Positions 3,619-9,692 of a stretch of 64,000 nucleotides of DNA are shown here, piece by piece (the stretch's first letter is position 1; each line of letters opens with the position of its first letter). The stretch covers positions 3,544,311 to 3,608,310 of the forward strand of contig NZ_CP069163.1 in the NCBI RefSeq assembly GCF_018802765.1, in the 5' to 3' direction. The notes under the pieces were generated by a model, which searched no databases, was not told the origin of the DNA, and was given only the letters and a program-made list of their open reading frames with translations. The stretch is from Paludibacterium sp. B53371. Its GTDB lineage: Bacteria > Pseudomonadota > Gammaproteobacteria > Burkholderiales > Chromobacteriaceae. Both the position numbers and the translations under genes were made by a program.

Positions 3619-5473
3619 GGTGTGATTCTCCGGTCAATGCTGGCAGCAGCAGCGTAAAGATCGCCCCGCCCTGCGGATGATTGGCGGCCGACAGACTGCC
3701 GCCGGCTTCGGCCAGGATGCTGGCCGACAGGGTCAGACCCAGTCCCAGGCCGACCCCGGCTGGTTTGGTGGTATAGAACGGCTCGAACAGGTGTTGCAGG
3801 CTCTTGGCCGAAAAACCGTGGCCGTTGTCGTGCAGCGTCAGTTCGACGCGCTGATCCAGCCGTCGGCTGCGGATGATGATGCGGGCACCCGGCATGTCTT
3901 GCAGTGCATCGAGCGAGTTGGTCAGCAGATTCACCAGTACCTGCTCCAGCCGGTTGGGGTCACAATCCGCGACCAGATCGGGCGTTTCCTCGCGGATCAC
4001 CTCGACGGCCCCGTGGCGCAGGCGCTGGTCGATCAGGAACAGCGCATTATCGAGCGTACGCGTCAATGCCGCCTGGCCGCCGCTGGCCTGGGATTTGTGG
4101 GCGAAAGAGCGCAGTGCGCCGGTAATCTTGCCCATGCGTTCAACCAGCTGGCCGATGGTTTCCAGATTGCCGCTGGCGGTCGGCAAGTTGCCGCGCGCCA
4201 GATACTTGATGGTGTTGGCCGACAGGGTCGACAGGGCTGCCAGAGGCTGATTGAGTTCATGGGCGATTTGCGCCGACAGCTGGCCGACCACGGCCATCTT
4301 GCCGGCCTGAATCAGCTCGGCCTGGGTTTGACGCAAGTGAGTCTCGGCACGCGCCCGCTCGGTGACCTCGGCCTGCAGCTGCTGATTGGCCGACAGCAGA
4401 TCGGCGGTGCGCTCCTCGACCTTCTGCTCCAGCTGCCGGTAGGCACGCTGCAGGGCCTCGCGTGCTGCCAGTTTGTCGCGCAGGCGCCGGCGGCGCTCGT
4501 TGAGCAGCACCAGCCCGGTCAACAGCAGGATGGACAGCACGGCCGCCAGGCTGGCGCGGCTGTAAGCCAGGCTGTAGGCGGGGGCGAGGCTTTCCAGCAC
4601 CGACAGTTGCCAGTTGCTGCCTGCCAGTGGGCGCGTTTGTTCCAGATAGCGGTGCAAGGGCGAATCGGCCACCCCGGATGGCGCCATCCAGCGTACGACG
4701 CGGGCGTCGCTGGATTGCTGATGCAGTAAGTCGATCTTCAGCGGTCGCAACTTCAGACGGTTGTATTGGCGCGTTTCGTCCAGCCGTTGCTGGTCTTGTG
4801 GCGGCAAGGTGCCGAGGGAGGCGAATTTCCACTCCGGCCGCGAGGCCAGAATCACCACGCGGTTGGCGTCGGCCACCCATACCAGCGCCTTGTTCTGGCT
4901 CCAGGTGTGCTCCAGCCGGGACAGACTGATTTTGACGACCGCCACGCCGATGGCCTGTCCGTTATCATCCAGCGCCTGCGACAAGTAATAGCCCGGCTCG
5001 CTGCGCGTGGTGCCGATGCCGAAGAAGCGGCTGCTCTTGCCGATGATGGCTTCTTTGAAATACGGGCGGAAAGCGTCGTTTTCGCCGAGGAAGCTGTCAG
5101 GTTGCTGCCAGTTGCTGGTGGCGATGACCTGACCCTGATTGTCCATGATGTAGATGGCGGTGGCGCTGGTGCGCTCGGTCAGGTGTTCCAGATAACGATT
5201 GACCTGCTTCTGCAGGATCAGGTCCCGGGGGGCATGCAGCAGGCCGACGACCGCCGGCGACAAGCCCAATACCCCGGGCAGCCGGGCAAAACGCTCCACC
5301 TCACTGTCCAGCGTCGCGCTGTACAGATCCAGCCGCTGGTTGGCGCTGTTTTCCAGTTCCGCCAGCGAGGACGACAGACTGGCATTGAAGGCCCAGCAGG
5401 CAAAGCCGGCCACGATCAGGGCAATCAGCGCCAGATAGAGCAGGGTGCCTGACAGTGAGCGGTGTTTGGCCAT
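3611..5473 (-). CDS. dctB: C4-dicarboxylate-type sensor histidine kinase DctB
   Basis: Membrane kinase that senses an external carboxylate and phosphorylates DctD. From ATG 5473 the protein is 620 residues: a first membrane segment (about 9-31), a periplasmic double-Cache sensor of about 260 residues, a second membrane segment (LAAVLSILLLTGLVLL), a coiled coil (LEQKVEERTADLLSANQQL), the H-box AHELNQPLAAL with the phosphorylated His near residue 404, then N-box (NLLTNSLDAL), DNGHGF and a glycine-rich GVGLGLGL. The open frame runs to 5602, but the extra 43 residues would overlap the symporter terminator and precede the membrane helix, so I prefer 5473, although its ribosome site is weak. It lies downstream of the symporter gene in the same direction. 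Confidence 0.92.
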   Translation of the reverse strand: MAKHRSLSGTLLYLALIALIVAGFACWAFNASLSSSLAELENSANQRLDLYSATLDSEVERFARLPGVLGLSPAVVGLLHAPRDLILQKQVNRYLEHLTERTSATAIYIMDNQGQVIATSNWQQPDSFLGENDAFRPYFKEAIIGKSSRFFGIGTTRSEPGYYLSQALDDNGQAIGVAVVKISLSRLEHTWSQNKALVWVADANRVVILASRPEWKFASLGTLPPQDQQRLDETRQYNRLKLRPLKIDLLHQQSSDARVVRWMAPSGVADSPLHRYLEQTRPLAGSNWQLSVLESLAPAYSLAYSRASLAAVLSILLLTGLVLLNERRRRLRDKLAAREALQRAYRQLEQKVEERTADLLSANQQLQAEVTERARAETHLRQTQAELIQAGKMAVVGQLSAQIAHELNQPLAALSTLSANTIKYLARGNLPTASGNLETIGQLVERMGKITGALRSFAHKSQASGGQAALTRTLDNALFLIDQRLRHGAVEVIREETPDLVADCDPNRLEQVLVNLLTNSLDALQDMPGARIIIRSRRLDQRVELTLHDNGHGFSAKSLQHLFEPFYTTKPAGVGLGLGLTLSASILAEAGGSLSAANHPQGGAIFTLLLPALTGESHHD

Positions 5474-8370: not shown

Positions 8371-8398
8371 CCGGTCCGGCGGTTTCTTGTCGGACCGG
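8371..8398. terminator. Convergent hairpin between reductase and BLUF genes
   Basis: Perfect 8-bp arms CCGGTCCG and CGGACCGG with a 12-nt loop lie between two convergent stop codons. There is no T run, so it may only stabilise 3' ends or act weakly as a terminator. Confidence 0.5.
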
Positions 8399-8405
8399 CG
8401 CTGTA

Positions 8406-8831
8406 TCAGCCCCGCGTGCCGAGTGCGCCGGCCTCGGCCAGGGCTTCCAGCAACCGGGCCGTGCTTTCGCCGCTGACCGAGTACGGGTCGAGTTGCGGGC
8501 TGTCGGAGAAGCGCAGCAGCAGCGACATGTTCAGCTTGTCCAGCGCCACCCGGGCCATGGCCCAGTTGGCGTAACGCCGTTCGGCAATCTCTTCGTACTG
8601 CAGCAGCGTGACGTTCTGGTGGCGGGGATCCTTGGCCAGCAGCTGGAACAGACGGTTGACCTCGGTACGGCCACCCTCCAGCACCTGCACGAAAGTCTTC
8701 TGGCTGTAGCACAGCAGTCCGGTGATGCCGTTGGCCGGATTGTGTACCTGAGCCTGCGACAGAATGGCCTCGATCAGCTTGGCCGAAATGGTTTCTGCGG
8801 TCTGACTGGCGTAGATCAAACGAACCAACAT
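8406..8831 (-). CDS. BLUF-domain blue-light photoreceptor
   Basis: A stand-alone BLUF (blue light using FAD) protein of 141 residues. The photoactive residues are all present: Tyr7 in LIYAS, Asn31 in HNPANGITGLL, Gln49 in FVQVLEG, and the semi-conserved Trp90/Met92 in NWAMARV. The C-terminal 45 residues are a short helical cap with no output domain, so the signal must be passed by protein contact, as known for short BLUF proteins. Its ATG lies 2 bp after the folE stop codon, so both are almost surely co-transcribed and perhaps translationally coupled. The link between a flavin photoreceptor and pterin synthesis is unusual. Confidence 0.95.
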   Translation of the reverse strand: MLVRLIYASQTAETISAKLIEAILSQAQVHNPANGITGLLCYSQKTFVQVLEGGRTEVNRLFQLLAKDPRHQNVTLLQYEEIAERRYANWAMARVALDKLNMSLLLRFSDSPQLDPYSVSGESTARLLEALAEAGALGTRG

Positions 8832-8833
8832 GA

Positions 8834-9541
8834 TTATCCCCTGTGGATCAAAGACAGGAATTCACGACGCAAATTGGCATCGCGCAGGAAAGAGCCGCGC
8901 ATCACGCTATTGGTCATCTTGGACTGATCGTCCTTGACCCCGCGCCAGTGCATGCAGAAGTGGTCGGCTTCCATGACGATGGCCAGGCCATCCGGCTGCA
9001 GTTTGTTCATCAGCAGGTCTGCCATGTGGGAAACGGCTTCTTCCTGAATCTGCGGCCGGGTCATGACCCAGTCGATCAGCCGGGCGTATTTCGACAGCCC
9101 GATCAGGTTGGAGTGCTCGTTTGGCATCACGCCGACCCATACCTTGCCCATGATCGGGCACAGGTGGTGCGAGCAGGCGCTGCGCACCATGATCGGCCCG
9201 ACGATCATCAGTTCGTTGAGCTGTTCGACATTGGGAAATTCGGTCGAGGGCGGCATCGGCACATAGCGCCCCCTGAAGACTTCGCGTACGAACATCTTGG
9301 CCACCCGCTTGGCGGTTTCCTGCGTGTTGTGATCGTTCTCGGTGTCGATCACCAGGCTTTGCAGAACCTGCTGCATGTGCTGCTGCACTTCGGCCTGCAG
9401 TTGATCGAGTTCGCCTTCCTCAATGAAGTCGGCGATGTTGTCGTTGGCATGGAAACGCTTGCCGGCGGCGACCAGGCGGCTGCGGATGCGCACCGATGCC
9501 GGATGGCTGGCAAGGCTGTTTTCTTGATCAGATTTGCTCAT
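8834..9541 (-). CDS. folE: GTP cyclohydrolase I (FolE type)
   Basis: Converts GTP to 7,8-dihydroneopterin triphosphate, the first step of folate and biopterin synthesis. The 235-residue protein has the zinc ligands Cys123 (RSACSHHLCP), His126 and Cys196 (HFCMHWRG), and the family landmarks TQETAKRVAKMF, IGLSKYARLIDW and QPDGLAIVMEADH. It begins MSKSDQENS. No other folate genes lie near; instead the BLUF gene follows at 2 bp. A separate housekeeping copy elsewhere is possible, in which case this one may serve a special pterin need; that is inference. Confidence 0.95.
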   Translation of the reverse strand: MSKSDQENSLASHPASVRIRSRLVAAGKRFHANDNIADFIEEGELDQLQAEVQQHMQQVLQSLVIDTENDHNTQETAKRVAKMFVREVFRGRYVPMPPSTEFPNVEQLNELMIVGPIMVRSACSHHLCPIMGKVWVGVMPNEHSNLIGLSKYARLIDWVMTRPQIQEEAVSHMADLLMNKLQPDGLAIVMEADHFCMHWRGVKDDQSKMTNSVMRGSFLRDANLRREFLSLIHRG

Positions 9542-9692
9542 GAATGGAAGACCTGTTCTGAATCACGATGAGGCTGGCGGGAGTTGTCATCAGGCCGTCG
9601 GAGGGCACCGTCGGCACTGAACCAGCCTGTCGTGCTAATAATGAAAACATGTTTACTGCATATTGCATAAAAGTTGAGGGGAAGTATACGCG

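Follow-up and report, generated by a model that had tools for sequence, protein, structure and literature searches.

The window analysed here is a stretch of 64,000 nucleotides from the genome of Paludibacterium sp. B53371, in which two adjacent open reading frames were studied together with their flanking features (Table 1). The first frame matched the Pfam GTP cyclohydrolase I family over its whole catalytic domain (152 bits, E 1e-44), and in the FolE alignment the zinc ligands C123, H126 and C196 as well as the remaining core were invariant. The second frame matched the Pfam BLUF family at residues 2-93 (107 bits). The preliminary description of the locus, a complete folE followed 2 bp later by a BLUF gene with all photoactive residues, was borne out by the open reading frames and the Pfam matches, and Y7, N31, Q49, W90 and M92 were confirmed. 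The protein had also been described as lacking an output domain; this held in that no second Pfam domain was detected, but residues from about 94 to 141 form a conserved PixD-type tail.

Table 1 Features of the folE-BLUF locus (positions are those of the window)
Feature	Position	Strand	Remark
folE, GTP cyclohydrolase type IA, 235 aa	8834..9541	-	Pfam GTP_cyclohydroI PF01227
PixD-type short BLUF photoreceptor gene, 141 aa	8406..8831	-	Pfam BLUF PF04940
Gap between folE and BLUF gene, 2 bp	8832..8833	-	Same strand for both ORFs
C-terminal extension of BLUF, residues 94-141	8409..8552	-	Kept in the subfamily, aligns with the PixD tail
FolE loop MPNEH, residues 139-143, before the GLSK motif	9113..9127	-	Suggestive only
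GC-rich inverted repeat CCGGTCCG/CGGACCGG, 3' of the BLUF stop	8371..8398	-	
Intergenic region upstream of folE, divergent from ggt	9542..9692	-	Presumed promoter region

The inverted repeat possibly marks the end of the operon. It was not called as a terminator in the pattern scan of the operon, where the sole terminator-like match lay inside folE on the opposite strand. No sigma-70 promoter consensus was matched in the operon, including the region upstream of folE, and no Rfam match to a THF or other riboswitch was obtained near folE in the 12 loci scanned. Some light-regulator and ECF-sigma motifs, searched in loose versions upstream of folE at 131 loci, were not more frequent than in shuffled sequence.

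The source genome, a single contig of 3.63 Mb, was searched for a second folE, and none of either type was found (FolE-IA, one copy; FolE-IB, none). The FolE encoded in the window is therefore the housekeeping enzyme. Four BLUF genes were present in the genome, one of them adjacent to folE. The nearest named relative was Paludibacterium purpuratum, whose BLUF protein is 87% identical. Elsewhere in the source genome (C1:834500-843500, locus L260), two BLUF ORFs were observed in tandem on the minus strand (3851-4324 and 4716-5195), both unlike the folE-linked type, and BLUF genes were also seen in close clusters in congeneric species and in further orders (L175, L193).

The best solved relatives found by profile search were Tll0078 and Slr1694, the PixD proteins of cyanobacteria, and the match to PixD/Tll0078 extended over the full length (E 1.5e-35). 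The single-chain AlphaFold2 model of the BLUF protein (mean pLDDT 87) was superimposed on PixD with a Z score of 22.9 and 1.3 A over 136 residues, the tail being covered, so that sequence and fold are shared along the whole chain including the C-terminal tail. The five residues named above, equivalents of the flavin-site residues of PixD, were invariant in 127/127 members of the folE-linked subfamily, the hallmarks of which include R10, C41, G54, N101 and a tail ending in R140. With its invariant flavin site and PixD fold, the protein has therefore been kept by selection as a PixD-type light sensor. Like PixD, it is a single-domain BLUF protein that must act through a partner protein. However, the target of PixD, in phototaxis, is the response-regulator-like protein PixE, whereas the constant genetic partner of the folE-linked BLUF protein is FolE, and no PixE-like response regulator gene was seen among the ORFs flanking the pair. 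In the crystal, the PixD decamer is built from a pair of pentamer rings stacked on each other, and PixE is released from the complex upon illumination (PMC5899715).

The conservation of the pair was surveyed in 61 genomes of the Chromobacteriaceae. FolE-IA was found in 53 of them, and in 48 of these 53 the BLUF gene lay directly downstream on the same strand; all genomes without FolE-IA (8/8) carried FolE-IB. The genes flanking the pair differed between genera, while the folE-BLUF pair itself was constant. No other GTP cyclohydrolase I (IA or IB) was present in 34 of the 48 paired genomes, and the partner of BLUF is thus an essential enzyme. One unpaired exception (G001) had a quite different FolE (24% identical). 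The other four belonged to one genus with the same FolE type and no BLUF, the FolE being 78-79% identical in the two of the four that were aligned; the remaining two were scored in the comparison of paired and unpaired FolE proteins described below. Since the flanks of two of these four genomes (L018 and L019) match those of the paired relatives L015 and L016, the BLUF-less genus looks like the result of one BLUF loss. At three loci of one genus (L214, L237 and L238), an unpaired FolE was located inside an ORF of about 780-830 aa, which might represent either a fusion or simply an extended reading frame upstream.

A score model was built from the folE-linked BLUF proteins of the family and applied to every BLUF protein. 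In 59 BLUF regions sampled from other families of the order Burkholderiales, proteins scoring at least about 180 bits were always encoded directly behind folE, those at or below about 120 bits never, and nothing fell between. Applied to some 140 additional loci, which represent 12 families or more, the same model split folE-linked from unlinked BLUF proteins at about 170 bits. Over all loci, every BLUF gene at or above 170 bits directly followed folE and none below did, when three apparent exceptions were explained by a contig end (L208) and by over-long ORF calls (L132 and L152). The highest-scoring unpaired BLUF proteins (157-163 bits) came from other orders of the class. In public genomes, the best 80 named loci, all of which are nearest relatives of the query and therefore leave the fringe of the subfamily unsampled, were paired in 80/80 cases, with a gap of mostly 1-15 bp and at most 316 bp; they include Acidovorax, Polaromonas, Ramlibacter, Variovorax, Herbaspirillum, Duganella, Vogesella and Chromobacterium.

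Beyond Burkholderiales, paired copies turned up in other orders of the class (G706, G595, G785) and in a second class of the phylum (G1087, L217), a distribution that would agree with joint transfer of the two genes as one unit. Among 130 sampled genomes of the order, FolE of the same type occurred in 24 and the BLUF subfamily in 16, all within the 24; several lineages have the same FolE type without BLUF. None of the loci and genomes surveyed yielded a member of this BLUF subfamily separate from folE. A transporter and some upstream genes recurred at many of the named loci and look like ordinary local synteny; among the flanks compared, no third gene was constant with the pair beyond single-family synteny, and no natural FolE-BLUF fusion was present among the loci examined. 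Taken together, the adjacency is conserved in the family, at the named loci and across a clean split of scores, to a degree that chance would not produce; absence of the adjacency in all relatives is decisively contradicted, and the proposal that ties this short BLUF protein to FolE is supported as a conserved functional link. The original observation holds, and with far greater strength than could be known from the single locus. No published account of the pair was found in a literature search that covered few subscription journals, and a prior description is possible.

Two loci with other BLUF proteins were observed alongside. At L224:2520-7911, a distant BLUF gene lies between genes for glutathione peroxidase and DNA photolyase, followed by 2-thiouracil desulfurase/DUF1722, with a lipocalin gene nearby; this is a compact light-stress cluster. 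At L172:1468-2454 (minus strand), outside the order, a BLUF gene stands directly behind a lipocalin gene with no gap, possibly another BLUF partner pair. Separately, a metagenome-assembled genome labelled Chitinophaga pinensis (L143) carried a betaproteobacterial folE-BLUF pair placed beside Malikia in the FolE tree, and it is probably a mislabelled or contaminated bin.

Sequence differences between paired and unpaired FolE proteins (126 and 30, respectively) were largest at two positions four residues apart, ahead of the active-site GLSK motif. M139 occurred in 84% of paired but in 2/30 unpaired proteins, which otherwise have L, and H143 in 94% against 8/30. The loop 139-143 seems to exceed its counterpart in the E. 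coli or human enzyme by two residues. In lineage comparisons, 9 of 11 unpaired lineages departed at M139 from their closest paired relatives and the reverse was seen in none; this signal was lost after correction for about 225 columns, and the poorly conserved column 217 exceeded M139 on the same measure. In the tree-aware test of the loop, 8 state changes were counted and supported branches yielded only 3 independent pairs, a number insufficient for significance. Given so few changes and the roughly 225 columns compared, the loop is a lead and not a proof, and the sequence contrast is suggestive of a candidate BLUF contact site.

Two studied systems are relevant to the function of the pair. 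In Cupriavidus metallidurans CH34, the FolE gene on the chromid (L196, NC_007974.2, at about 558 kb) is followed by a BLUF gene of the same subfamily, and since this is the chromid's FolE-IA gene, we infer that L196 holds Rmet_3990 (FolE_IA). The gene table of NC_007974.2 has no entry in the L196 stretch. It has been reported that FolE_IA of this strain is active when purified alone, that its activity is Zn-dependent, and that folE_IA is not transcribed from RpoD promoters (PMC10882993). The enzyme type and the neighbouring BLUF subfamily are thus the same as here; however, metal dependence is the sole subject of that study, which makes no mention of the BLUF neighbour. In Pseudomonas mendocina, folM-folE-folX adjoins genes for a short LOV protein and LitR (PmlR2), and folE is 1.6-3.3-fold up in light (PMC9758184). 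There too a blue-light receptor without an output domain sits beside pterin-synthesis genes, but it is a LOV and not a BLUF protein and acts via the LitR transcription regulator, whereas the folE-BLUF pair has no conserved regulator neighbour.

FolE is the most likely target of the BLUF protein, given that the symmetries match, that the pairing is exclusive and that no other neighbour is constant. We give about an even chance to the reading that folE and BLUF are a conserved two-gene module in which FolE would be the dedicated partner of BLUF and its activity would be set by blue light. GTP cyclohydrolase I is a D5 decamer, and in animals its five-fold faces are capped by the pentameric GFRP (PMC7750480). 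A more specific model, which we hold only tentatively, would make the BLUF protein a light-dependent allosteric subunit of FolE and the counterpart of GFRP, whose PixD-like pentameric or paired-pentameric ring would cap the five-fold faces of the decamer and place the first folate step under light control in non-phototrophic Betaproteobacteria. On the main, even-chance reading, the BLUF protein would assemble, like PixD, into five-fold rings or dimers and in one light state would dock on the five-fold faces of FolE; blue light would then rearrange the ring and change the activity, feedback or stability of FolE. The likeness to GFRP concerns the proposed logic only, in which a small five-fold-symmetric protein docks on a D5 decamer and sets its activity. 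GFRP senses phenylalanine and BH4 and belongs to another protein family, to which the small protein here does not belong (its sole Pfam match is BLUF), and the docking of BLUF is predicted by analogy. In an AlphaFold2 model of a read-through FolE-BLUF pseudo-fusion from in-frame loci (26 rows), pTM was 0.45 with no usable interface, and the linker and part of FolE were below pLDDT 50.

Because several lineages keep the same FolE type without BLUF, the BLUF protein is dispensable for the enzyme, and because the BLUF-linked FolE_IA of C. metallidurans is active alone, it can only modulate FolE. The likeliest sense of control would be that light relieves or stimulates FolE; the finding that folE is induced by light in P. 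mendocina suggests that folate rises under illumination. The extra folate might replace what is lost to photodamage, or serve photolyase (as methenyl-THF) and repair.

The BLUF protein might instead signal to some other protein in the manner of PixD and PixE, with folE merely co-expressed in a shared light or stress programme. Known BLUF proteins have diverse targets (PMC5899715), and the nearest ones outside the subfamily have other partners, as in the L224 cluster and with the lipocalin of L172. A shared programme, however, leaves unexplained why no member of the subfamily was found separated from folE in many families, although the flanks change, and no third gene accompanies the pair beyond single families; we consider this reading unlikely, though one to be taken seriously. 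Control of expression would work differently again: E. coli BluF acts through BluR, and the BLUF protein here might similarly control the expression of folE and of its own gene via an unlinked repressor and leave the FolE protein untouched. The induction of folE by light in P. mendocina (PMC9758184) and the transcription of C. metallidurans folE_IA without RpoD promoters (PMC10882993) would fit. But no regulator gene is conserved beside the pair, no shared upstream motif was seen, and the second position in an operon is odd for the regulator of an unlinked partner, so that this explanation appears quite improbable.

It is also true that linked genes persist by descent and that BLUF-less lineages exist, as would be expected if the adjacency were an accident of inheritance with no functional coupling. 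Yet the pair has stayed intact while every neighbour was reshuffled, it is present in many families and it reaches distant classes, and we leave only a very small chance to such an accident. Pterins and folates are generally known to absorb near-UV and blue light and to serve as photolyase antennae, and a role of FolE-made pterins as antenna or cofactor for BLUF had been suggested for this locus. This idea found no support and was rejected for that reason: the BLUF protein has an ordinary PixD fold with a standard flavin site and all its residues, other BLUF proteins need no pterin, and FolE supplies just the first intermediate of the pathway, a compound required everywhere. The probability left to it is minimal. 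Light control of FolE is the best available reading, though unproven.

To our knowledge, very few short BLUF proteins have a target that has been identified. The genome comparisons made here link a whole BLUF subfamily to one partner, the first enzyme of folate synthesis and often the cell's only copy, and suggests that light acts on folate production in non-photosynthetic bacteria. If the coupling is real, such a naturally light-switched enzyme would be a useful tool, and in ordinary bacteria of soil and water a central vitamin pathway would be controlled by light.
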